IMG/VR virus record: IMGVR_UViG_3300009158_003091
Span: 1-33,587 of that record
Origin: a virus
Direction: 5' to 3' (one strand)
DNA length: 33,587 bases
The position numbers were made by a program, and so were the translations under genes. Below are positions 691 to 32,638 of the stretch, piece by piece. Each line of letters begins with the position of its first letter. Positions within the stretch are counted from its first letter, which is position 1. The notes under the pieces were generated by a model. The model saw only the letters and a list, made by a program, of their open reading frames with translations. It searched no databases and was not told the DNA's origin.

Positions 691-2619
691 ATGCCAATAG
701 GAAACGCATTAGCTGTAATAAGAAGCACTGATGATCGATATATTCCCTACAAAGTAACAACTTTTACCGGGAGTTTAACTTACGTGGGATATATGGATGG
801 AGTTAATAGTTATTATTTTTCTCCTCCTACGTTAACTGGCGGAAAAAGATTATCAATTGATAATAACTCAAACATAATAACAACAACAAATTTCAGAACA
901 GTTTTAATTGATATTAGAGAAAAAAATAAACATATATCCGACATATATGGAAAAATGTATCAGACAATTGCTTATCATACTGATGGTAAAAGTATAAGAT
1001 GTATTAGCAACATGATATCTTTGTATGGAACTGTAGATAATTTTTTAACAGATTTGGGTGGTTCTGCATCGGGTGATGTTGATGGAGGTGCTGCGACCAG
1101 ATTTGACAGCGGAGCAAAATTTAATAATATAAATGGTGGAATTTTTGATTCTGATGGGAATGCATATGTATGTGATACGGGAAATTCCAAAATAAAAAAA
1201 ATAAATTTTTCGACTTTAAAATCATCCACATTTGTATCCACGGGATTTACTTCTCCAGTTGGAATAACACGAGACAATCTTGGAAATTTTTATGTTGTTG
1301 ATAAAGCAAGACATGTCATTAAAAAAATAACAAGTGGCGGAACAGTCTCTTTGTTTGCAGGTGTTGAAAACACTAGTGGTTATTTGGATGGATCTGGAAG
1401 TACGGCTAAATTTAGCAATCCATGGAATATAACATGTGATAATAATAATAATTTATATGTAGTAGAAGAAATAAATAAATGCATTAGAAAAATAACACCA
1501 GATGGTACAGTTTCTACATTAGTTGGGATTTCTTCTTCTACAACAAATAGAGATGGTGTTGGGAGTTATGCTTTATTTAAGGAATTAAAAGGTATAGTTT
1601 TTAGACCATTTTCAAATAAATTATATGTAACTGGAAGTAATACATTAAGAGAAGTCTCTTTGGATGGAACAGTTAAAACAGTTGCTGGTACAGAAACTAG
1701 AACCACGGATATAGTTGATCGAGATATCGTTGCCGAATTTTCGTCATTAAAAGGTATGTGTTTTGATTCTAATGGTATCATACACATCATCGATACCAAT
1801 TGTATAAAAAAAATAACAGGAGTAACTAAAGTATTTTCTGGTTTAACCAACACATTTGTCGGATTAAATCCAAAAGCAGGAGGAGCTAATGGAAATGGGC
1901 TTTTTGCTGAATTTAATTCTCCCGAATTTTTAGCTTTTGATTCCGACAATAACTTATACGTAAGCGACACAAAAAATCATGCAATAAGAAAAGTAACTCC
2001 TGCTGGAGATGTATCAACTTTTGCGGGTTTGGTGGGAAGTTCTGGTTATGCTGATGGTAATGGAATTAATGCCAGATTTAATGAACCATTAGGAATCGCT
2101 TGTGATAGTTATAATAATGTATACGTATCGGATTCAAAAAACCATTGTATACGAAAAATAACTCCTGCTGGAGATGTGACCGCATTTGCTGGTACGAATG
2201 TTAGTGGTTTTGTGGACGGTATCAATACAACCGCAAGATTCAATACCCCTAAAGGGTTAGCATGCGACAACAATAATATGCTTTATGTGGCTGATAGTGA
2301 AAATTCAGCCATTCGTTCTATTGAAACTAACGGAACGGTTTCAACAATAGAACAAGATAAAATTAACAAATCTAATAAAAAACCAATTGATATTAAATTT
2401 AATTCTAAAAATTTAAAATTATATATTACGTATGATGGTCTGGCTTCTGTGATTTCAGACAAACCATATCAAACTATAGGAACTGGTGACGGAAGCACTG
2501 ACGGAACCGATACTACTGCAAAATTCAAAACTCCGTATTCTCTAGCAATAGATAATGCAGGATCAGTCTATGTAACCGATCCTGCCAATAACAATATACG
2601 TAAAATAACTCCAGCCTAA
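691..2619 (+). CDS. NHL-repeat beta-propeller protein, probable virion adhesin
   Basis: A 642-residue protein built mainly of NHL-type blades. The recurring unit is D-x-x-x-N-x-Y-V-x-D-x-x-N-x-x-I-R-K-I followed by (T/S)PAG(D/T)V(S/T)xFAG and DGxGxxAxFxxPxG. Roughly nine or ten units can be read from about residue 145 to the end, which is more than one six-bladed propeller. The first ~140 residues are a different beta-rich domain that may attach it to the virion. No signal peptide is evident. ATG at 691 follows the fibre gene by 5 bp. NHL propellers bind proteins, glycans or nucleic acids; adsorption to the host surface is inferred from the neighbouring fibre gene. Its stop overlaps the stop of the convergent gene at 2616. 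Confidence 0.8.
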   Translation: MPIGNALAVIRSTDDRYIPYKVTTFTGSLTYVGYMDGVNSYYFSPPTLTGGKRLSIDNNSNIITTTNFRTVLIDIREKNKHISDIYGKMYQTIAYHTDGKSIRCISNMISLYGTVDNFLTDLGGSASGDVDGGAATRFDSGAKFNNINGGIFDSDGNAYVCDTGNSKIKKINFSTLKSSTFVSTGFTSPVGITRDNLGNFYVVDKARHVIKKITSGGTVSLFAGVENTSGYLDGSGSTAKFSNPWNITCDNNNNLYVVEEINKCIRKITPDGTVSTLVGISSSTTNRDGVGSYALFKELKGIVFRPFSNKLYVTGSNTLREVSLDGTVKTVAGTETRTTDIVDRDIVAEFSSLKGMCFDSNGIIHIIDTNCIKKITGVTKVFSGLTNTFVGLNPKAGGANGNGLFAEFNSPEFLAFDSDNNLYVSDTKNHAIRKVTPAGDVSTFAGLVGSSGYADGNGINARFNEPLGIACDSYNNVYVSDSKNHCIRKITPAGDVTAFAGTNVSGFVDGINTTARFNTPKGLACDNNNMLYVADSENSAIRSIETNGTVSTIEQDKINKSNKKPIDIKFNSKNLKLYITYDGLASVISDKPYQTIGTGDGSTDGTDTTAKFKTPYSLAIDNAGSVYVTDPANNNIRKITPA

Positions 2620-2858
2620 TCTAGGCACTCTTCGACCTTAAAGTCATGATTCATGCTGGGGAATCTTTGATTAATATATTTCTGTAATGCTAATGGCTTG
2701 ATCCATTTATCACTCTTTTCTAGATCTATTTTAGATTTAGAAGCTTGTTGATTGATTAATTCTACTGCTTCCATTAAGCATAACCATCTGGAATAAGAGT
2801 CCACAGACATTACGTGCTCTGCATTTGATTTAGTAGTTACGGATATTTTTTTTACCAT
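2616..2858 (-). CDS. Small protein, possible late transcription coactivator gp33
   Basis: An 80-residue protein, last gene of the 3669-to-2616 operon; its ATG overlaps the stop of the preceding gene by 7 bp. Residues ~25-70 read as a helical domain (LMEAVELIN, then DLEKSDKWIKPLALQKYI). The spacing resembles what I recall of gp33 proteins of T4-like phages: acidic helix, a K-x-x-x-x-L-x-x-K-I core, then an LN-like segment. In T4, gp33 bridges RNA polymerase and the sliding clamp through a C-terminal LDFLL motif; here the end is EECLD, so that motif is poor or absent. Identity as gp33 is an inference from pattern only; otherwise it is an unassigned small phage protein. Confidence 0.5.
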   Translation of the reverse strand: MVKKISVTTKSNAEHVMSVDSYSRWLCLMEAVELINQQASKSKIDLEKSDKWIKPLALQKYINQRFPSMNHDFKVEECLD

Positions 2859-3247
2859 ATAAAGTTTTTTGTTAAAAAGCCCAGCATTAATGTATTGATC
2901 TCATCCGAAGATACGTCAATATTATTAGCCATTAAACATTCTAAGGCTGTTGTCATAATATCAAAATTCTTACGAATCGTCAAGTTCTTAACATTATCTT
3001 CTTTATATTTCGAAGTTAAAAATTCACGAATAATATGTAATACATGTTTTAAAGAATCATTTCCGGAAGAAGACATGGTTCTACGCATATTCGCCATATC
3101 ATAAACACGAATTAAATCTTTATTTTTTGTAAGAAGAAAAATATTAATCTCATCTTTAATCTTTTGAATATCCACCGTTATGGTAGGTAGATGTGTTATT
3201 GATGAAGGAACTAATTGAGCATTAGCTAACTCTTGTGAATTAAACAT
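2852..3247 (-). CDS. Hypothetical phage protein, 131 aa
   Basis: Not recognised. It is a mostly helical soluble protein with no membrane segment or cysteine motif. Residues ~24-50 are rich in Lys/Asp/Ile, and a Met-Ser-Ser-Ser-Gly segment sits mid-protein. ATG at 3247 follows the stop of the upstream gene by 2 bp, and its own end overlaps the next gene by 7 bp. It is therefore the middle member of a three-gene operon driven from the promoter at 3676-3704. The operon order (membrane/zinc protein, this gene, gp33-like gene) gives no firm functional clue. Confidence 0.65.
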   Translation of the reverse strand: MFNSQELANAQLVPSSITHLPTITVDIQKIKDEINIFLLTKNKDLIRVYDMANMRRTMSSSGNDSLKHVLHIIREFLTSKYKEDNVKNLTIRKNFDIMTTALECLMANNIDVSSDEINTLMLGFLTKNFIW

Positions 3248-3249
3248 AA

Positions 3250-3669
3250 TTATGGTGTTTGTATTTTCTTATATGCTTCGATTAACTGAGCTTCTGCATT
3301 ATCTAGATCAATAATATCAGTTTGGCAAAATGTTCTAACATTTACATCAACCGAGATAAACTTATCACATTCCCCACATTTAAACGAATTATCTTCGCCT
3401 AATTGAATAGGAACAAACATGGATTTTTCCAAATAACAAGGACACTTAACATCCAATCCTTGTTTTGAGAATTCTTTAATTCTTTCGTTTTTAATCTTCT
3501 CAGCAATGATTTCTAAATATTTTGTATAGAGATTATAAATTACAAATTGTGCCAAAGAAGCACCAACAAAATACTTAATGAAACTTAATGTGTTATCACA
3601 AAATAACAACGAAATAGCAGTACTGACGCTAATCAGTATCAGTAGAGGTTTTAGGATAGTAAATACCAT
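3250..3669 (-). CDS. Membrane-anchored protein with zinc-ribbon-like C-terminus
   Basis: A 139-residue protein. Residues ~1-25 (ILKPLLILISVSTAISLLF) and ~28-50 form two hydrophobic segments, suggesting a helical hairpin in the inner membrane. A charged helix follows (~50-70). The C-terminal half has two cysteine pairs, CPC near residue 76 and CGEC near residue 98, spaced like a zinc ribbon, plus a further Cys. This combination is not one I can name. The ATG at 3669 follows a predicted promoter by 6 nt and is the first gene of its operon. A role at the host membrane (for example recruiting replication or a superinfection function) would be speculation. Confidence 0.65.
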   Translation of the reverse strand: MVFTILKPLLILISVSTAISLLFCDNTLSFIKYFVGASLAQFVIYNLYTKYLEIIAEKIKNERIKEFSKQGLDVKCPCYLEKSMFVPIQLGEDNSFKCGECDKFISVDVNVRTFCQTDIIDLDNAEAQLIEAYKKIQTP

Positions 3670-3675
3670 CCCCGA

Positions 3676-3704
3676 ACTATACAGGAATTCCTACCAGTTA
3701 TCAA
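3676..3704 (-). promoter_or_regulatory. sigma70-type promoter for the 3669-to-2616 operon
   Basis: On the minus strand, TTGATA (3704-3699), 17 bp, TATAGT (3681-3676), then 6 nt to the ATG at 3669. The -35 box lies inside the end of the upstream gene. The expected transcription start falls at or next to the start codon. Confidence 0.6.
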
Positions 3705-4044
3705 CCTCAAAAAGTTCTAAAAATTTAGGCAATTCAATAATCTTTTGATTGATTGAATCCATTTCTTGTCGTGCTCTTTTTAATCCAGATTTTTGAGATT
3801 TTTTAACTGATGGATTCTGGATAGAATTATCCAATTCATTCGTCAATGTCATTGTTAATTCTAATAATTGTGAAAATTTCTGTTTAAAATTCTGTATTTG
3901 ATAAGGAAGTTGCACATTTTTCGTATCCAAAGGACTTCCGCCCGGAGTATGAATTTTTAAGGAATTCATAGAACCGGGACTATCCCCTGTGACTTGCACA
4001 TTATTGTTTTCGATTGTATTTTCCCTTAAATTTTTCTTTTTCAC
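3691..4044 (-). CDS. Hypothetical late protein, 117 aa
   Basis: Not recognised. The first ~45 residues are Asn/Ser/Gly/Pro-rich and probably disordered. Residues ~48-110 are predicted helical and may form a coiled coil. The end, PKFLELFEVDNW, is hydrophobic and acidic. The start is a GTG at 4044; a TAAATAAT late-type box lies 12 nt upstream and leaves no room for a ribosome binding site. Divergently transcribed from the late gene at 4080. The small size, late box and low-complexity N-terminus suggest a structural or assembly accessory protein, but nothing shows which. Confidence 0.6.
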   Translation of the reverse strand: MKKKNLRENTIENNNVQVTGDSPGSMNSLKIHTPGGSPLDTKNVQLPYQIQNFKQKFSQLLELTMTLTNELDNSIQNPSVKKSQKSGLKRARQEMDSINQKIIELPKFLELFEVDNW

Positions 4045-4048
4045 TTAA

Positions 4049-4056
4049 ATTATTTA
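4049..4056 (-). promoter_or_regulatory. Late-type promoter box TAAATAAT for the 4044 gene
   Basis: Minus-strand TAAATAAT, first T 12 nt before the GTG start at 4044, no -35 element. It matches the core of the T4 late promoter TATAAATA and sits back to back with the box at 4069. Confidence 0.6.
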
Positions 4057-4068
4057 CCATTTTGGGAC

Positions 4069-4076
4069 TAAATAAT
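4069..4076 (+). promoter_or_regulatory. Late-type promoter box TAAATAAT for the 4080 gene
   Basis: Plus-strand TAAATAAT followed by CAC and the ATG, so the first T is 11 nt before the start codon. No -35 box and no Shine-Dalgarno. Divergent partner of the box at 4049. Confidence 0.65.
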
Positions 4077-4079
4077 CAC

Positions 4080-4508
4080 ATGAGTAATCTTTTTCAAAAA
4101 GCATTTGTGAATGTTCTTCGTGAACAACCTGAACCAGAAAATATTTCTGATTCAGAAGCAATGGTACAGACCCTAGATAAGGGAACTGATCCGTCCATGC
4201 TTGATGTGGAAGGTGGACCTGAAGCAGAACATCTTGCTGCTACTTCTAAGATTCAAGCTGGTATGGTTCAGACTTTAAATGAATGGATTGCTAAATTAGA
4301 TGAATTTTCCAATTTCCTAAACAGCCCTTCTGATCCAAATTCGATGCAATCCAAGCTTAAAAATTCTATTCGTGATACTATGTTTGATAAGATTCGTGTA
4401 GCAGAAACCAAAAAGATTGCTCGTGTTTCGATGGAAATTACTTCACTAAACGAGATGTTGAAGGGATATGCTGCTACCTCACAGGATTCTAAATACCGGG
4501 GAATTTAA
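4080..4508 (+). CDS. Late protein with capsid-targeting-like N-terminus, 142 aa
   Basis: The ATG at 4080 is chosen because the late box TAAATAAT sits 11 nt upstream; an open extension back to 4014 would run through that promoter. The N-terminus MSNLFQKAFVNVLRE is a short amphipathic helix ending in L-x-E, like T4 internal-protein capsid-targeting sequences that are removed by the prohead protease. The rest is an acidic stretch (residues ~16-45) and a helical domain (IQAGMVQTLNEWIAKLDEF onward). No catalytic motif. Probable internal capsid or core protein by inference; function unknown. Confidence 0.65.
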   Translation: MSNLFQKAFVNVLREQPEPENISDSEAMVQTLDKGTDPSMLDVEGGPEAEHLAATSKIQAGMVQTLNEWIAKLDEFSNFLNSPSDPNSMQSKLKNSIRDTMFDKIRVAETKKIARVSMEITSLNEMLKGYAATSQDSKYRGI

Positions 4509-4538
4509 ATTTATAAGTTGTTGATAAACAGCAATTTA

Positions 4539-5531
4539 TCACTTAACAGACACTGCATTTTTAATAATAAATTCAGGAGAAATGACATTGATATCTATCG
4601 CCATAGAAATGTCATTAAAATCCTTGTAAATCTTACCGATTTTCTCAGGCCACAAGAACACAGTTTCTCTAACTTTAAGAAGTTTTTTTGTTTTGTTTAA
4701 TGCAGCACTATCCTTGTGCTGAGAATCTAGAACCCAAATCCTTTTATGAAAAGGGAATTTATTGATTTGTTCTTGTTGTTTAACCGAGAATAATTGATAA
4801 GAATTTTCTTGGATGCCTCCAACAGCTACTCCGTTTTTAACAAAACAAGAATTAATTGGTCCTTCAAAAATAAAGATTGTATCATAATTTAGATCCACCT
4901 TATCAATATTAAATAAGGTTTTGTCTCCACCTATTTTAGAGATATATCTGGGTCTTTTATCTTCATCAGATTCTAGTATAGTTCTAGTCTGATAATACAC
5001 AATTTTACCATTCTCGTCATAAAATGGTAAAATCAAACGATTTTTATGAACTTTATCTGTCAGAGAAATATATAATGCCTTGGGACGATTAATCGCATTA
5101 ACTATTTTTCTGTGTTCAATAAATTCTAAAGTCTTCTGGACTACTGAATTATTTCTATAAAAATCTATCTGAGATTTATCAAATAAATTAATAGAATCTT
5201 TAGGAAGAGTCTCTGCTTGGTATTTTGGTTTCTCTTCTGCTCCAGACAAAAACAGAACCGAACTATTATTCAATTCTTCTTTTAATTCCCAGAATGAACA
5301 TCCCGTGATGTCCATTACCCATTTTACGGGATTTGAGTTATAGCCACAATTATGGCAATACAATCTATTATCTTTGGGAATATAATAGAAACGCTTCTTA
5401 ACAAGCCAAGAATTTCCCTCTCTACACATAGGACAAGAGCCCTGATATGTATCAGTAAATTTATTCTTTCTAGCCGCTCCAGCAAACTGGAAGAATTTCT
5501 GAGCTATAAAATCTTCGGGTAGAATCAGCAC
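4539..5531 (-). CDS. 61: DNA primase, T4 gp61 type
   Basis: A 330-residue primase that makes RNA primers for lagging-strand synthesis with the gp41 helicase (not in this window). An N-terminal zinc-binding motif is visible: C33-x2-C36 and C59-x2-C62. The TOPRIM-type catalytic part has the acidic motif IFIFEGPINS (Glu223) and a later VLDSQ (Asp269), followed by FLWPEK and a D-F-N-D-I segment matching the gp61 C-terminal region. Length is close to T4 gp61 (342 residues). The start is GTG at 5531, the only standard codon after an in-frame stop, and a predicted promoter ends 6 nt before it. Convergent with the late gene ending at 4508, with 30 bp between. Confidence 0.88.
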   Translation of the reverse strand: MLILPEDFIAQKFFQFAGAARKNKFTDTYQGSCPMCREGNSWLVKKRFYYIPKDNRLYCHNCGYNSNPVKWVMDITGCSFWELKEELNNSSVLFLSGAEEKPKYQAETLPKDSINLFDKSQIDFYRNNSVVQKTLEFIEHRKIVNAINRPKALYISLTDKVHKNRLILPFYDENGKIVYYQTRTILESDEDKRPRYISKIGGDKTLFNIDKVDLNYDTIFIFEGPINSCFVKNGVAVGGIQENSYQLFSVKQQEQINKFPFHKRIWVLDSQHKDSAALNKTKKLLKVRETVFLWPEKIGKIYKDFNDISMAIDINVISPEFIIKNAVSVK

Positions 5532-5537
5532 AAAAAT

Positions 5538-5566
5538 ATGCTATCACAACTATCCACCCGAATCAA
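5538..5566 (-). promoter_or_regulatory. sigma70-type promoter for primase gene 61
   Basis: On the minus strand, TTGATT (5566-5561), 17 bp, TAGCAT (5543-5538), then 6 nt to the GTG start. Weaker -10 than the others, and one of two cases with 17 bp rather than 16 bp spacing. Confidence 0.45.
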
Positions 5567-5569
5567 CAA

Positions 5570-5773
5570 TTAATGGCACTGATGAGTAATATCCTGCCTT
5601 GTAGCAGCATCAAGAACTTTAACGGTTCCTTTACGGATGAATACACCAGACTTGGGATCAATCCAGACTGCTTCAACATAAATCTTGTCGCCATACTGAC
5701 GTTCTGAAATCTTTGGCTGTGACATTTCACCACTGATTGGTGAGGGAATACGAATTGCTCGAACAATATCCAT
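5570..5773 (-). CDS. Hypothetical small protein, 67 aa
   Basis: A 67-residue protein, beta-rich with IYVEAVWIDPKSG and a C-terminal TRQDITHQCH. Not recognised. I start it at the ATG at 5773 because a late-type box, TAAATAAG, ends 4 nt before it; a longer frame back to 5854 would run through this box and the 3' end of the preceding gene. The upstream gene's stop codon (5778-5780) is part of the promoter box. The -35 of the primase promoter lies just past its stop. Confidence 0.6.
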   Translation of the reverse strand: MDIVRAIRIPSPISGEMSQPKISERQYGDKIYVEAVWIDPKSGVFIRKGTVKVLDAATRQDITHQCH

Positions 5774-5776
5774 ATT

Positions 5777-5784
5777 CTTATTTA
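5777..5784 (-). promoter_or_regulatory. Late-type promoter box TAAATAAG for the 5773 gene
   Basis: Minus-strand TAAATAAG, first T 11 nt before the ATG. The stop codon of the upstream gene (Lys-AAA then TAA) is embedded in the box. Confidence 0.55.
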
Positions 5785-6050
5785 GTTTGTTCACTGTTAT
5801 AAACAAATTGTTTTTCCAAAATGGAATAAACATCACTAGGTAGCTTCTCGACAATTTCTACGATTTTATTCTCCATACCAAAATCAAATTTATCTTTTGG
5901 TATTTCTCTATTAATATTTTTGGGAATCGAGATAAATTTTAAATTATTTTGATCTCCACCCACATAAACTAAAATTTCACCAACGTATGTTCCAGTTGTT
6001 ACTGCATACGAATAACCTTTAATTGGATGCTCTTTGGACTTGCCAAACAT
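5778..6050 (-). CDS. Hypothetical conserved-type phage protein, 90 aa
   Basis: A 90-residue protein with a beta-rich N-terminal half (YSYAVTTGTYVGEILVYVG, then LKFISIPKN) suggesting a small SH3-like barrel. A helix-rich tail (residues ~60-85) follows. No catalytic motif. The ATG at 6050 lies 3 nt after the stop of the gene at 6054-6398, so it is translationally grouped with the clamp operon. Not recognised with confidence; a replication accessory role is only suggested by position between the clamp and primase genes. Confidence 0.62.
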   Translation of the reverse strand: MFGKSKEHPIKGYSYAVTTGTYVGEILVYVGGDQNNLKFISIPKNINREIPKDKFDFGMENKIVEIVEKLPSDVYSILEKQFVYNSEQTK

Positions 6051-7944: not shown

Positions 7945-7972
7945 TAGATACAAAAAAGCCCCGACATTTCAA
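7945..7972 (-). promoter_or_regulatory. sigma70-type promoter for the clamp operon
   Basis: On the minus strand, TTGAAA (7972-7967), 16 bp, TATCTA (7950-7945), then 4 nt to the ATG at 7940. The -35 box occupies the loop of the gp32 terminator hairpin. Confidence 0.55.
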
Positions 7973-7987
7973 GTGTCGGGGCTTTTT
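7952..7987 (-). terminator. Rho-independent terminator of gene 32
   Basis: Stem arms 7958-7966 and 7974-7982 (GCCCCGACA pairing with TGTCGGGGC), 7-nt loop, and flanking A/T runs that extend the stem and give the U-tract on the minus transcript. It lies 17 bp after the gp32 stop. Confidence 0.9.
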
Positions 7988-10994: not shown

Positions 10995-10998
10995 AAGA

Positions 10999-11025
10999 AA
11001 AGGCCACCTTTTGGGTGGCCTTTTT
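10999..11025. terminator. Bidirectional terminator between convergent genes
   Basis: A 10-bp stem, arms 10999-11008 and 11014-11023 (AAAGGCCACC with its complement), 5-nt loop, with A and T runs on the two sides. It serves the plus-strand gene ending at 10994 and the minus-strand gene ending at 11027. Confidence 0.9.
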
Positions 11026-12416: not shown

Positions 12417-12448
12417 AAAAAACCACCAGAAAATTAATTCTGGTGGTT
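12417..12448 (-). terminator. Rho-independent terminator after the 12823 gene
   Basis: An 11-bp stem, arms 12421-12431 and 12438-12448 (AACCACCAGAA with its complement), 6-nt loop. The A-run at 12417-12420 gives the U-tract for minus-strand transcription. Separates the small gene from uvsX. Confidence 0.88.
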
Positions 12449-12472
12449 TAACCATTTCATCTTATGTCTCTT

Positions 12473-12834: not shown

Positions 12835-12862
12835 ATATTAACATCCGTCAATTCGTTTTCAA
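12835..12862 (-). promoter_or_regulatory. sigma70-type promoter for the 12823 gene
   Basis: On the minus strand, TTGAAA (12862-12857), 16 bp, TAATAT (12840-12835), 11 nt to the ATG. The -35 overlaps the stop of gene 43. Confidence 0.55.
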
Positions 12863-15438
12863 CTGAAAATATCGTCTAAATCACACATTAATTGATCATT
12901 TGGTTTTCGGGGAATCCAATTCATTACGTTGTAAAATCGTTCGATACATTTATACATGTCTTTCTCAAACATCTCTTGCATGTCTGGTTTGAAGATATCT
13001 CGGAATTCTTCTGGATATCGAGTTTTATAAGCAATTGCTTTGATCCCATACATGTTTGGAGTCTCTACATAAAAATATTTGATCTTATCGCCGCTTACGA
13101 TCTTTTCATATTTTTTATCTAATCCGTATTCATCGATCAACAAATTGTAAAAGTAAGCTGCTTTGACATGACATGGCATTCCTTTCACAGTAGTAAATCC
13201 ATTACATTGCATTGAATATTTGTCTAAATTTTTAATCCCAGACAACAGTGAAATATCACTAACATTCATATTAATAAAAGTATCATAAGCATCTTTAAAG
13301 ATCTGATTCGTGGATGATTCAGATTTTGTCATGATCATATTCTGGATAATTTTCTTTACATAAGGCTTAATTGCTTTGGGCATTGTTGTCCGCACAATTT
13401 CCACTCCAGTGTATTTCCAGTCATCACATGGAATTCCTTCTTTATCCAAGACATGGAAAACATATCTTTTCTTTTCTAGAAAGATTGCTGCATCGCACAT
13501 CAATTCTCGTTTGAATTCAAAACGACAATCATTTGTATTGAGAGTTCTTTCTGACCACTTTTTAATATTTGTATTGATATAATCCTGAAGTTTATCAGCC
13601 ACTTTATAAGCTTCTTCAGTAACTTTACCGTTTACAGAAAATTCGGGAATTACATTTGTAATCAATACACCCAAGCTATCGGTATCACCGAAAATTAATC
13701 CATTTTCAATTTCTTTATCATCTGTGATGGTTGTGTTTTCCCTGATAAAATTCTTATAAAGTTCACGGGCTTGTTTAATTACTGCTTGTCCCGTTAATGT
13801 AATGGATTCGGCAATATCGGTATCACCAACGGGGCAATATTTATTTGCCGTAGCTCCGTACACCGAATTAAGCAGCCTTTTTATCGATTGTTGCTTAACG
13901 TCCAGATAAGAAATTCGGTTTTCAATTTCCTTTTTCTTCTGTTCATTTTCAGAAGGTTTTTTGTTGATCTCGCTTATTTGTCTTTTGAGAGACTTCAATT
14001 CTTTCTGGATCTTCACACGTTTCTTATAAAACTGATCCACTAGATCTGATAAGATTCCTCGTTTCTTTTGCGTAAACAAAACTTTGGATCTAGAAATGGC
14101 AATTTTCTCTTTTTGAATAAAGTTATTAAACTCTTTTAGATTAAAATCCACAACAATCCCATCCACATTTCGAATTGAAATCCTATCATTGATTACAGAA
14201 ATAATTTTCCCAACTTTGGTTTCTGGAGATGTATTCAATGTGATCATTGTGTTTGGATACAGTGAATTCGCATCAAATGTTACAACTCCAGAATGATGTC
14301 CAGCAATTGGATCGGCTACATATCCACCTTGAAAATCTCTTTCACCATTTTCATCCACAACAAAAGTACAGAGTCTTTGTTTTCTTTTTCGTGCTTCAAT
14401 ACCAGCAGCACCCGTAACCACACTTACTGTTCCAAGAGCAGATTCAAATGTTGTGCATCCAGTATATGATAACATCCTCAACAACTCGATATATTTCAGA
14501 CGCTCTTCTAGTTTAACTAGAATTCTAACGTCTTGAATGTTGTAATCTACGAAAGTTTCCCAGTCATTTGTCATTAGTTCATACAAACTTTGATCACCAT
14601 AATCGACTTTGGATTCATCTAATTCAACTTGACCGATATAATCCAGCTTATAACTTTCACGATTCGATGGGCAGAATTTTTTGTAAATGTCCAAGTAATC
14701 CACACAAGAAATACCATCTAGTCTGTGAATAGTATCAACACTTCCGAATTTTCCTGCAACAGTTTTAATATATCTTCTTTTATAAGGAGACAAATCATCC
14801 GCTGCTTCTTTGCCAAGAATACGTTCCATTCGATTTACAATATATGGAATATCATATCGATCAGATGACCATCCAGATAGAATATCAAATGGATTTTGTT
14901 TAATGAAATTTAAAAAGCCTTCGAGTAAATAATATTCAGATCCACAGTAATAATAAGTTACGTCTGATTCTTTTGCTGCGTATGGTTGTGTACCCCATAC
15001 GAAAAATCTTTTAGAGATCGAATCATAAATTGTAATTACATTAATTTCATCATTCGGATTGTCGGGAGAAGAAAATCCATTTGCTCCCACAGCTTCAATA
15101 TCCACAAAATAAATCTTCAATGGAAATTCAGCGAATCCATCGGTATCGTTATGCTTCCAATATAGATCAATTAATGTCTGTTGAACTGGATTGTAGTTAT
15201 CGAAAATCCTAGTCAGTCCACGTTCTTTTAGGAACTTTTGTTTGTTATAAGAATTATCAAACTCTTTGCGCCTTAACGGAGTGCCGAAAATACTCTCTTC
15301 ATTACCATTAATATCTTCGTAATAAAAATAAGGATGGCATTTTATCGATGTAGTAATACGTTCACCCTCATCAGACCAAGTATAAACGTCTACGACTTGA
15401 TTCTTGAAGTCGTAGACGGCGTTTCTATATCCTCGCAT
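12859..15438 (-). CDS. 43: DNA polymerase, family B (gp43)
   Basis: An 859-residue replicative polymerase with proofreading exonuclease. Exo I is FVDIEAVG (Asp113, Glu115), Exo II is SGWSSDRYDIPY (188-199) and Exo III is YNIQD (299-303). Polymerase motif A is DANSLYPN (389-396), motif B is K-R-L-L-N-S-V-Y-G (520-528) and motif C is FGDTDS (583-588). A charged insertion of ~70 residues (455-515, Lys/Glu-rich, probable coiled coil) lies before motif B. The protein ends CDLDDIFS, resembling the clamp-binding tail of T4 gp43 (SLDFLF). All catalytic residues are present. The mRNA has a strong hairpin at codons 8-17. The predicted promoter is 7 nt from the ATG. Confidence 0.95.
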   Translation of the reverse strand: MRGYRNAVYDFKNQVVDVYTWSDEGERITTSIKCHPYFYYEDINGNEESIFGTPLRRKEFDNSYNKQKFLKERGLTRIFDNYNPVQQTLIDLYWKHNDTDGFAEFPLKIYFVDIEAVGANGFSSPDNPNDEINVITIYDSISKRFFVWGTQPYAAKESDVTYYYCGSEYYLLEGFLNFIKQNPFDILSGWSSDRYDIPYIVNRMERILGKEAADDLSPYKRRYIKTVAGKFGSVDTIHRLDGISCVDYLDIYKKFCPSNRESYKLDYIGQVELDESKVDYGDQSLYELMTNDWETFVDYNIQDVRILVKLEERLKYIELLRMLSYTGCTTFESALGTVSVVTGAAGIEARKRKQRLCTFVVDENGERDFQGGYVADPIAGHHSGVVTFDANSLYPNTMITLNTSPETKVGKIISVINDRISIRNVDGIVVDFNLKEFNNFIQKEKIAISRSKVLFTQKKRGILSDLVDQFYKKRVKIQKELKSLKRQISEINKKPSENEQKKKEIENRISYLDVKQQSIKRLLNSVYGATANKYCPVGDTDIAESITLTGQAVIKQARELYKNFIRENTTITDDKEIENGLIFGDTDSLGVLITNVIPEFSVNGKVTEEAYKVADKLQDYINTNIKKWSERTLNTNDCRFEFKRELMCDAAIFLEKKRYVFHVLDKEGIPCDDWKYTGVEIVRTTMPKAIKPYVKKIIQNMIMTKSESSTNQIFKDAYDTFINMNVSDISLLSGIKNLDKYSMQCNGFTTVKGMPCHVKAAYFYNLLIDEYGLDKKYEKIVSGDKIKYFYVETPNMYGIKAIAYKTRYPEEFRDIFKPDMQEMFEKDMYKCIERFYNVMNWIPRKPNDQLMCDLDDIFS
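15388..15417 (-). promoter_or_regulatory. RNA hairpin in codons 8-17 of gene 43 (candidate operator)
   Basis: A perfect 11-bp inverted repeat (GTCTACGACTT and its complement) around an 8-nt loop, CAAGAATC on the mRNA strand, nt 22-51 of the coding sequence. An outer AAC/GTT pairing can extend it. T4 gp43 represses its own mRNA by binding a hairpin with an 8-nt loop at its start region; here the mRNA seems leaderless and the hairpin lies inside the gene. Regulatory function is inferred. Confidence 0.5.
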
Positions 15439-15445
15439 TCCATGA

Positions 15446-15473
15446 GAATAACATGGAATTTTCTTCTTATCAA
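15446..15473 (-). promoter_or_regulatory. Weak sigma70-type promoter for gene 43
   Basis: On the minus strand, TTGATA (15473-15468), 16 bp, TTATTC (15451-15446), 7 nt to the ATG. Good -35 and conserved spacing but poor -10, so it may need an activator or be read from upstream. Confidence 0.35.
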
Positions 15474-16678
15474 GGATTGTATCGCTTCAAATTCACCCTT
15501 TTGGGATCTCCATATGGAGTGGTGAATAATTCCATATAGCAATCTAGATTCTTGTCTAATTCCATGAATCGATCTTCTGCGACTGCCCTGCGCTTAGGAG
15601 CATTCTTTTTATAATCCCATCCGCTCTTTAATTCTTTTGCAATACAATCCAACATTTCTTCACCAGATTTGAACTTAATCTCGGCATTTTCATAAGTGCA
15701 AAGATCCTGACATACAGCAGGAAGACCAAATGCACATGCTTCGATATATTTCAAATCACTCTTGGCTTTATTAAAAGGATTATCTTGGAGAGGAGCAACC
15801 ATCATCTGAACACCCAATTCATGAATTTTTTCTGGATAATTGTAAAGCCGCTGCCAAGGATGAAATTCAATATCTCCATTCTGGATATATGGACGTAAAG
15901 GAGGAGGAAATGCTCCCATAAATACCCATTGATATTTTTTACGACTATCAATTATAGCTTTGAGAACATGTTCGAAATCGTCTTTCTGACCAGTTCGGTT
16001 TTCCACATCAAAGTGAGCACCGCTACCTGCATAAAGGATTCGAGGCTTTTTCTTATTTTTTTCATACAAAGATGTAATTCTGGCTTGATCGTAATAATGC
16101 CCGATCCAGAATTTAGCAGGGAAGTTTGGAATTACGGTAATTTCTTTTTTACCAGTTCTCTTTTGATAAAGTTCACGCATGTAATTGCATGTGACACTGA
16201 CTTCATCACACATGTTGATAATCTCAACTACATTGTTTCTAATTTCATCAGACACGAAAGCAGTTTTAAATTTATTGTAATCTGGAATATCTTCACGGAA
16301 CACGACATCATCTACTTCATAAATGAGTTTAAATTTGTATTGAGGTTGGATACTCTTGAGAAATTTAATGAATTCTTTTTGAGGTGAAGTTGCTTGTCTC
16401 TGAAGGCGCAAACTGGAAACTCCAGAATAAAACTGTGGATGAAGCACCATAACCGTGCTGTCTTGAACCATTGCCTTGCCTTGATAATTTAATAAATGAT
16501 TCAACCAACCCATTCTATACAAACCGCATCCACTATTATCTGCTCCATACTGAACTACTCTAGGTAGCCTAACTTCAGGGGGTTGCGCTGGTTTTGTTGA
16601 TGCTTCCTCTATTTTCGTAAGTGGTAAAATAGGCTCAAATTTAGAAAAAGGTTTAGGTATTGAAAATTGAGGAATCAT
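15470..16678 (-). CDS. Glycosyltransferase, GT-B fold (GT4-like), 402 aa
   Basis: A two-Rossmann-domain sugar transferase. The N-terminal domain has VVQYGADNSGCGLYRMGWLNH, a segment seen in phage GT-B proteins, and YEVDDVVFREDIPDY. The C-terminal domain has RILYAGSGAHF, then HPWQRLYNYP and the nucleotide-sugar site KSDLKYIEACAFGLPAVC, with the E-x7-E type motif reduced to its first half. The first ~40 residues are Pro-rich and probably disordered. It lies between gene 46 and gene 43 and ends 32 bp before the polymerase start. Sugar and acceptor are unknown; modification of phage DNA, of virion proteins or of a host surface glycan are all possible. Confidence 0.8.
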   Translation of the reverse strand: MIPQFSIPKPFSKFEPILPLTKIEEASTKPAQPPEVRLPRVVQYGADNSGCGLYRMGWLNHLLNYQGKAMVQDSTVMVLHPQFYSGVSSLRLQRQATSPQKEFIKFLKSIQPQYKFKLIYEVDDVVFREDIPDYNKFKTAFVSDEIRNNVVEIINMCDEVSVTCNYMRELYQKRTGKKEITVIPNFPAKFWIGHYYDQARITSLYEKNKKKPRILYAGSGAHFDVENRTGQKDDFEHVLKAIIDSRKKYQWVFMGAFPPPLRPYIQNGDIEFHPWQRLYNYPEKIHELGVQMMVAPLQDNPFNKAKSDLKYIEACAFGLPAVCQDLCTYENAEIKFKSGEEMLDCIAKELKSGWDYKKNAPKRRAVAEDRFMELDKNLDCYMELFTTPYGDPKRVNLKRYNP

Positions 16679-16767: not shown

Positions 16768-17535
16768 ATGTTTAATTGTAAAATATGCAATAAAGAATTT
16801 AAATCTTATCAAGCGGTAGCATCACATCAATCGTTCCACAAAATAATAAACGAAGCTTGTGATATATGTGGAAAAGAATTTACCAGTCAACATGCCTTGA
16901 ATGGTCATAAAGTTTGGCATAATAAATCACATCAAGAACGAATCGAAAAAATTAATTCAAAAACTACAGAAAAACACAAAGAAGCAGTTTCTGAGTATAT
17001 GAAAAATCCAATATTCTGTAAAAATTGCAGTATTGTTCTTAATTATAAACAATATATTTTTAGAAAAAATAGAATTGGAAAAAACGGTTCTCCTAGAGAT
17101 GTTTTTTGTGGTCAATCTTGTGCTGGTTTTTATACAGCTAAAAATAAAACACATGGTTATCGAAGATCCAAATTAGAAATTGAAATAGAAAAAATCATAA
17201 CAGAAAAATATCCACATTTAGAAGTCGATTATAATAAAAAGAATACCATTTTATCTGAATTAGATATTTATATACCTCGTTTGAAATTAGCTTTTGAATT
17301 AAATGGAATTTTCCATTATGAGCCTATATATGGAAAAGATTGCTTAGAAAAAATACAAAGTAACGACAATCGCAAAATTCTAGCATGTGCAGAAAAAGAA
17401 ATAGAATTATGTGTTATTGATAGTAGCGGCCTCAAATCCATGACCAAAAAAGAAGAGGTAACGAAATATTTAAATATCGTTACCTCTATCATTGATCAGA
17501 AAATGGCTCGTTTAAATTACACGAACGGATTGTAA
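16768..17535 (+). CDS. Zinc-finger endonuclease, probable free-standing homing nuclease
   Basis: A 255-residue protein with two classical C2H2 fingers: C4-x2-C7-x12-H20-x3-H24 and C31-x2-C34-x12-H47-x3-H51. A zinc ribbon follows (CKNC near residue 88, CGQSC near residue 117). The C-terminal nuclease domain (~130-240) has SKLEIEIEKIITEKYP, SELDIYIPRLKLAFELNG and FHYEP, with later K and CVID segments. This resembles the EDxHD/Vsr-like PD-(D/E)xK nucleases used by phage homing genes. It is the only plus-strand gene inside the minus-strand block from 11027 to 22732, and its end overlaps the end of gene 46 by 19 bp, as expected for an inserted selfish gene. Specificity unknown. Confidence 0.8.
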   Translation: MFNCKICNKEFKSYQAVASHQSFHKIINEACDICGKEFTSQHALNGHKVWHNKSHQERIEKINSKTTEKHKEAVSEYMKNPIFCKNCSIVLNYKQYIFRKNRIGKNGSPRDVFCGQSCAGFYTAKNKTHGYRRSKLEIEIEKIITEKYPHLEVDYNKKNTILSELDIYIPRLKLAFELNGIFHYEPIYGKDCLEKIQSNDNRKILACAEKEIELCVIDSSGLKSMTKKEEVTKYLNIVTSIIDQKMARLNYTNGL

Positions 17536-27951: not shown

Positions 27952-28716
27952 ATGAGGATCGCTATATCTGGTACTACAGGAATTGGTAAATCTACCCTAA
28001 TTAATGATTTTTTAAAAAATTGGCCTCTCTATAAGACTCCAGATCAATCTTATAGAGACGTTTTAAAAGAAAAAAACTATCCACATAGCAAGAATTGTAA
28101 CAGAGAAGGCCAATGGGCTATTTTGAATTCTATGCTGGATGAAATGCAGAAGTATTCCAAGGACGATAAAGTTATTTTTGATCGTTGTCCTTGGGATATG
28201 CTTGTTTATTCTCTCTGGGCTTCTGAGAAAGGTTCTTCAGATATTGATAAGGAATTTATCGATAAAATTATTCCAATTGTGAAGAATTCTTTGAAGAATT
28301 TAGATTTGATTTTATTCATTCCAATCTCAAAACATTCACCAGTTCCTATTGTTGATAATGGAAAACGTGAAACTGATCCAGAATACATTGCTGAAATTGA
28401 TTGGATCTTTAAGGCATTGTTTCATGAATATCAGCATAGTCTGGGTAAGACTCCATTTTTTGATGCAGAAGATAGCCCTGCGATTATTGAGATTTTCGGA
28501 AATCCCCAAGAAAGAATCATGCTTATTCAACAATATCTAAATGTTGATGGAGAAGTTATCGGCGACGAAGGAGACTCTATTCTAAATCCAGAAAATATTG
28601 AAGAATTAGAAAAGCTGATGTTAGAGCAGCTTAATGCCGAAGAAAAAGAAAGATATTATAATAAGAACAAATCCATGGTGGATGAGTTCATGAAGACAGA
28701 AAAGCTTAGGATTTAG
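27952..28716 (+). CDS. P-loop nucleoside/nucleotide kinase-like ATPase, 254 aa
   Basis: The P-loop is GTTGIGKS (7-14). The central VIFDRCPWDMLVYSLW segment (DR-x-P lid/base region) and LDLILFIPIS strand match the AAA_28/thymidylate-kinase-like group found in phages. FDAEDSPAIIEIFGNPQERI follows. The last ~60 residues (from ILNPENIEELEK) are a Glu/Lys-rich helical extension beyond the usual domain. Probable role in nucleotide metabolism, next to a Nudix enzyme. Its stop overlaps the convergent gene by 11 bp. Confidence 0.75.
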   Translation: MRIAISGTTGIGKSTLINDFLKNWPLYKTPDQSYRDVLKEKNYPHSKNCNREGQWAILNSMLDEMQKYSKDDKVIFDRCPWDMLVYSLWASEKGSSDIDKEFIDKIIPIVKNSLKNLDLILFIPISKHSPVPIVDNGKRETDPEYIAEIDWIFKALFHEYQHSLGKTPFFDAEDSPAIIEIFGNPQERIMLIQQYLNVDGEVIGDEGDSILNPENIEELEKLMLEQLNAEEKERYYNKNKSMVDEFMKTEKLRI

Positions 28717-31710: not shown

Positions 31711-32638
31711 TGTTATAATTCTGTCGTATGCAAGAGACGAAGCGCATTTCGAAATGGTTAAGAAATGCGCTTTATCTTATTTGAAGGACGGAGAACAATA
31801 CATAAACAAAATTATTCTTGTAGAAAGCAATAAGGATTTTGATGTTACTAGATGGAAAAATATTTCTGATAAAGTATTTTATATTAGTCCACCTTTTAAG
31901 TTCAATTACAATAGATTTCTTAATATAGGATTGAAATATTGTGATTCTGAATTTGTTTGTGTTTCAAATAGTGACGTTGTGGTTCAGGAAAATTGTGTTG
32001 GTAATATCTTGAAAGAATTCCAGAAAGATCCAGAATTGATGTCTGCAAGTCCTGTGGATAGAACATGGCACAGGAATTCCTATAATGATTTTCCTGAAGA
32101 TAATTCAATATACTATGGTTATGAAACAACCAAGTACCTTTTGGGATTTAATATCTATTGCAGAAGATCTGTGTATGATATTATTGGGTGGTATGATGAG
32201 AGATTTGATTTTTATCATCAAGACAATGATTATGAAACCTGTTTAAAGGTTAATAAATTAAAACACGCCATGGTGACTTCTGCTCATATTGTACATGGAA
32301 AAGATAAGCCAGATGATGGAGTAACTACTGCGGAAACTCACAGTAAATTAAATCATTCGGCTGGGTTATTTATGAATAAATGGAGGAATGCGCCATTTAA
32401 TAAAAAGTTTGAAAAGTATGTAAAGTTGGCTATCGTGACTGACACACCAATTAATTATTATAGTAATTTCGTGAAATTTTTCCCAAAAGGATCTGATGCT
32501 GTGTATGGTCAGTATATTTTTGATTGTAATATGGAATTAACAGAAGATATCGTAAACAAAATTATTAATAAGATAAATGAACTAGATCCAACAAAGATTG
32601 AAATCGATGCGAACAATTTCGTAGTAAGGAGTTTTTGA
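31697..32638 (+). CDS. Glycosyltransferase, GT-A fold (GT2-like), 313 aa
   Basis: LDVIILSYARDEAHFEMVKKCALSYL and IILVESNKDF form the GT-A start. FNYNRFLNIGLKYCDSEFVCVSNSDVVV (NSD at 91-93) is the donor site, and GFNIYCRRSVYDIIGWYDERFDFYHQDNDYETCLKV is the typical acceptor region with an ED-like acidic cluster. The C-terminal ~90 residues are an extension without a recognised motif. Member of the overlapping glycan operon. Confidence 0.82.
   Translation: MQNLDVIILSYARDEAHFEMVKKCALSYLKDGEQYINKIILVESNKDFDVTRWKNISDKVFYISPPFKFNYNRFLNIGLKYCDSEFVCVSNSDVVVQENCVGNILKEFQKDPELMSASPVDRTWHRNSYNDFPEDNSIYYGYETTKYLLGFNIYCRRSVYDIIGWYDERFDFYHQDNDYETCLKVNKLKHAMVTSAHIVHGKDKPDDGVTTAETHSKLNHSAGLFMNKWRNAPFNKKFEKYVKLAIVTDTPINYYSNFVKFFPKGSDAVYGQYIFDCNMELTEDIVNKIINKINELDPTKIEIDANNFVVRSF

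Follow-up and report, generated by a model that had tools for sequence, protein, structure and literature searches.

A perfect hairpin at the start of a probably leaderless T4-type DNA polymerase gene, read as a possible cis-acting element that shifts position among relatives

The DNA polymerase gene (gene 43) of the uncultivated T4-type phage in IMG/VR record IMGVR_UViG_3300009158_003091 carries a perfect stem-loop just inside its coding sequence. The stem itself is missing from close relatives, and the first part of gene 43 in this clade holds far more predicted mRNA structure than its codons require. The best-supported reading, which we put forward tentatively and at a little short of even confidence, is that this is a cis-acting hairpin early in the coding region of a gene that probably lacks a leader, its position and register turning over among relatives. 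We base this on the whole stretch of 33,587 nucleotides of the record, here called the window, and on related viral sequences.

Gene 43 occupies 12859..15438 on the minus strand and encodes a T4-type family-B DNA polymerase of 859 amino acids (phrog_262, E 3e-179). Within it, the window sequence contains an inverted repeat with arms at 15387-15398 and 15407-15418 that are complementary at 12 of 12 positions, with 8 nt between them. In mRNA sense (minus strand), this 12-bp perfect stem-loop (15387..15418) consists of the 5' arm CGUCUACGACUU (15418-15407), the loop CAAGAAUC (15406-15399), and the 3' arm AAGUCGUAGACG (15398-15387). It spans nt 21-52 of gene 43, from the third base of codon 7 to the first base of codon 18. 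A preliminary description of this DNA had recorded a perfect 11-bp stem with an 8-nt loop at codons 8-17; the perfect pairing, the loop size, and the early location were confirmed, while the stem proved one pair longer and its extent correspondingly codons 7-18. The isolated hairpin has a predicted folding energy of -17.2 kcal/mol. Folding with flanking mRNA, also proposed in that description, kept the stem intact, with predicted pair probabilities of 0.89-1.0 whether the mRNA was leaderless (180 nt) or read through from upstream. An Rfam search returned nothing relevant to the hairpin.

How far the stem exceeds chance depends on what is held constant. At the size of the window (AT content 66.6%, earlier given as ~67%), a first-order Markov genome is expected to contain about 0.03 perfect stems of at least 12 bp with loops of 3-15 nt, and synonymous codon permutation of the window's coding sequences gives an expectation of 0.08-0.12. 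Much of the complementarity, however, comes from the V-Y-D...V-V-D peptide: its V-Y-D and V-V-D codons are in part reverse complements of each other, which inclines the region to pairing. In 20,000 synonymous codon draws with the protein fixed, a mean of 9.97 of the 12 positions paired when G-U was included, and all 12 did so in 5.75% of draws. None of the draws produced 12 Watson-Crick pairs, because these need rare codons, for example GTC, which accounts for 7% of Val codons. The 12-bp stem is more than chance would give locally, yet the genome has a general surplus of such stems. The earlier judgment that it was unlikely to arise by chance is borne out by the low expectations, but it has to be qualified by the roughly 10 of 12 pairs that the peptide supplies and by the genome-wide excess.

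We also asked how gene 43 is likely to be transcribed. Upstream of it lies a glycosyltransferase-like gene (15470..16678, minus strand), which is the same upstream neighbor as in close relatives. On the minus strand, a -35 element, TTGATA (15468..15473), overlaps the stop codon of this upstream gene, and its TTGA is conserved in relatives. After a 17-bp spacer, an extended -10 element, TGtTATTCT (15445..15453), ends 6 bp before the AUG, so that the promoter reads TTGATA-17-tgtTATTCT and predicts a leaderless mRNA. The close relatives checked keep the 6-bp promoter-AUG spacing (TTGATT-17-TACCAT-6-ATG and variants), and we found no Shine-Dalgarno sequence at the usual distance from the gene 43 AUG. 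Because the -10 element ends 6 bp before the AUG and this spacing is kept in close relatives, the gene 43 mRNA is probably leaderless; the lack of a 5' leader supposed in the preliminary description fits this arrangement. Leaderless starts may be common in the clade formed by the window and genomes G001-G012, where most genes have no Shine-Dalgarno sequence and many have a sigma70-like -10 element ~6 bp before the start codon. Across 404 genes from 12 clade genomes, including the window, TATAAT-like hexamers peaked immediately before start codons, 98 promoters were counted at up to 3 mismatches versus 29 in shuffled sequence, and Shine-Dalgarno tetramers were nearly absent. The placement of the -10 elements and the scarcity of Shine-Dalgarno sequences point to widespread leaderless transcription in the clade.

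The start codon of gene 43 lies in a second symmetrical element. An 8-bp inverted repeat, ATTCCATG-TTATTCT-CATGGAAT (15437..15459, minus strand), surrounds the -10 element and the start codon; with its 7-nt spacer it would be present in RNA only with read-through transcription from upstream. Start-codon inverted repeats were also seen in relatives (L156, L157, L160, L165, and others), as TACCAT-N6-ATGGTA in many and as TATCAT-N6-ATGATA in those with codon 2 changed to Ile. They may serve as a DNA operator or, in read-through mRNA, form a hairpin.

In the relative L139, gene 43 (2041-6015) is interrupted in frame by a putative intein running from SGWN|CISNGQ to LVHN|CDRYD, the middle of which resembles an endonuclease. 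In L135 (8176-12249), intein-like halves divide gene 43 at the DTDS motif, and a separate 334-aa open reading frame lies between them; the first half has a Pfam Intein_splicing match below the curated cutoff. In the window, an open reading frame at 16768-17535 (plus strand) encodes C2H2 zinc fingers and resembles HNH/homing endonuclease families of phages, and its neighbors run the opposite way.

Conservation of the stem had been set beforehand as a test, and for this particular stem the outcome went against the earlier proposal. Scans of viral contigs yielded ~17 close polymerases whose genes also have the glycosyltransferase gene upstream. The 12-bp stem was present at the homologous place in 0 of 16 close relatives, although the protein was kept, and pairing at that place was about what synonymous draws predict from their proteins. 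Two bases of the window's 5' arm occur in no close relative, and one of them yields a Phe unseen in all of them. A search with the N-terminal peptide found no closer relatives, a DNA-level search of the phage collection gave no match, and a host search in genome contigs gave none either.

Early structure as such, on the other hand, sets gene 43 apart. Compared with a synonymous-codon null, gene 43 ranked first among 33 orthologous groups for extra mRNA structure at nt 9-135, with a mean z of -4.55 (8 of 10 sequences below -2) against -2.87 for the next group and -0.85 for all genes; this test was devised after the hairpin had been seen, and the sister sequences in it are not independent. Of the 28 window genes tested, gene 43 deviated most over the same interval. 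Using synonymous permutations, we obtained a mean z of -4.27 for nt 0-150 in 16 close-clade sequences, and of -4.22 without the window. The excess is confined to the 5' part, z falling to -0.79, -0.32, and -0.08 further along the gene in the close clade. In 38 distant polymerases, nt 0-150 gave a mean z of only -0.63, and nt 51-135 averaged -3.26 in 17 close polymerases versus -0.77 in 53 distant ones.

The structures behind this signal are not one structure. In relatives, the strong gene 43 hairpin lies at nt ~60-115 in a shifting register: L045, L008, L002, L007, L012, L032, and others use the sum-82 register, and L041 and L034 use sum-76, with 14 perfect pairs in L034. The window has a second, weaker hairpin at this site (nt 67-112; 15327..15372, minus strand; z -1.5, P 0.087), and its perfect stem sits 15 nt ahead of it. 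No significant hairpin occurs at nt 51-135 in L040, L042, or L046. RNAalifold predicted no consensus structure for nt 51-128 of 17 relatives, because the registers differ among them, and covariation is weak even in sum-82, the commonest register. What recurs is a hairpin somewhere in the early zone, and not a single homologous structure. The different registers (sum 82, sum 76, and 20-51 in the window) suggest selection for having a hairpin, as opposed to shared descent of one.

Some of these hairpins share a cap. Hairpins in mRNA capped by cUUCGg are known from T4, and the same apex closes the early-coding hairpin in 6 of 18 clade polymerases; the window hairpin differs in having an 8-nt loop with no UUCG. 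The Ser codon TCG, which the cap needs, makes up 6.6% of clade Ser codons and stands at codon 31 in 8 of the 18.

Taken together, these data are best accommodated by a model in which the window hairpin would be the local version of an early-coding hairpin present in most gene 43s of the clade, its place and register turning over. It would lie 20 nt in from the start of the probably leaderless transcript, just past the footprint of the initiating ribosome. There it would most likely act in cis, either by curbing gene 43 translation at initiation or early elongation or by shielding the 5' terminus of the mRNA, and a role as a T4-type gp43-binding operator appears less likely than such cis action. 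What the analysis shows is the hairpin, both in sequence and as a predicted fold, together with the promoter motif and its spacing, the non-conservation of the stem, and the gene 43-specific early structure; the start of transcription, hairpin formation in vivo, and any regulatory effect are deduced from sequence.

The main rival explanation, a serious though less probable one, is that the hairpin is a non-functional palindrome, one of many, in which a V-Y-D...V-V-D quasi-palindrome was perfected by template switching during replication. Template switching is able to make perfect stems (PMC8794818), and the window hairpin resembles such quasipalindrome products (PMC8794818, PMC7202029) in its perfect Watson-Crick arms, its short spacer, and the surplus of stems around it. 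The protein alone already accounts for ~10 of the 12 pairs, and a 5' arm with two bases unique among close relatives, one giving the unique Phe, also fits this origin. The window has 5-6 perfect stems of at least 11 bp within coding sequences where 0.25-0.42 are expected, and 12 relative contigs have 52 where 7.9 are expected (two of the 12 are near-identical in part and were counted twice), mainly with gaps below ~40 nt. Among near-perfect stems genome-wide, single G-U and A-C mismatches occur at about the same frequency, as expected of a process at the DNA level, and the antisense strand folds almost as well as the sense strand (z -2.41). A cause at the RNA level is not demanded, because the antisense folds so well and G-U is no commoner than A-C.

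Template switching should convert one arm from the other. Single cases do look like one-arm rewriting (G002 cds 351, with 1 change in one arm and 9 in the other), but the expected asymmetry was not significant over 74 stems (1.95 versus 1.82, P 0.20), and the window's closest relatives are too distant for such a comparison of its own stem. Nor does a neutral palindrome explain the standing of gene 43 among the 33 groups or the clustering of stems toward 5' ends. In 180 genes, 20 stems of at least 10 bp fell in the first 240 nt, 18 in the middle, and 2 in the last 240 nt, and this 5' bias was absent in distant relatives. The 5' ends of bacterial genes can show unusual mutation rates (PMC12725619). 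Early stems were only weakly associated with promoter-adjacent genes (P 0.05 at a stem length of at least 11 bp), and folding differed at 1 of 6 offsets.

The window's other perfect stems within coding sequences include 17454-17487, 28026-28058, 31740-31772, and 5002-5033. Long stems at 7953-7987, 10998-11024, and 12420-12449 lie between genes or at their edges, end in T runs, and resemble intrinsic terminators. L132, L137, and L148 share an 11-bp in-gene stem near nt 210 of a ~980-nt gene, kept through a compensatory A-T/T-A swap (ATTTCCG.../...CGGAAAT versus ATATCCG.../...CGGATAT).

The gp43 operator is among the founding cases of polymerases that control their own mRNA, and the preliminary description had asked whether the window hairpin is a displaced version of it. 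Under this explanation, gp43 would bind the intragenic hairpin and block its own translation, as a displaced form of T4/RB69 control. The likeness is real as far as it goes: both are hairpins that have 8-nt loops and sit near the initiation region of a T4-type polymerase mRNA. A control hairpin inside the coding sequence is also sensible for a gene that probably has no leader, and the excess of early hairpins is specific to gene 43; this much of the proposal stands. Identity with the T4 operator is not supported. In predicted folding, T4 gene 43 forms the known operator, a 5-bp stem with the loop AAUAACUC upstream of the AUG and adjoining the ribosome-binding site, whereas the window hairpin has 12 bp and 32 nt in total, lies inside the coding sequence downstream of the AUG, and is missing in close relatives, with stem, loop, and position all unconserved. 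The T4 element measures 18 nt and that of RB69 16 nt in all, and published operator loop cores are -UAAC- (T4, RB69), -CAAC- (SELEX), and -UAAA- (RB49) (PMC3014915), none of which is found in CAAGAAUC. In relatives, the apical region of the nt 60-115 hairpin often contains UNAC, which in some of them is the UAAC of the T4 loop, but the conserved Val-Thr codons explain this too. Autoregulation is also absent from some T4-related gp43 proteins (PMC3014915). We regard an autogenous operator as improbable, and give equally little weight to the fuller scenario in which gene 43 of the clade lost its leader and the operator moved into the coding sequence, with gp43 still recognizing it despite repeated rebuilding.

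Equally doubtful is the idea that gene 43 merely shows, in a form extreme by chance and with no gene-specific role, the early-coding folding peak of most genomes. A strong peak of mRNA folding downstream of the start codon is known across life (Peeri and Tuller 2020, PMC7063772), and the profile of 180 clade genes matches it, with little folding at the start, a maximum at ~+30 to +120, and little again near the end; distant relatives have a similar shape. Gene 43, however, deviates far beyond every other group, with a z about fivefold the clade average and long near-perfect stems. An intrinsic terminator was rejected, there being no T run after the gene 43 stem on either strand.

A cis-acting hairpin that turns over in the early coding region is the reading we retain. 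A clade with a polymerase mRNA that probably lacks a leader but repeatedly forms hairpins within coding nt 1-120 would illustrate how such control persists where there is no leader, or gives way to structure in cis alone. Its members also form a natural set of differing early-coding hairpins, with which selection on RNA structure may be separated from mutation that makes palindromes.
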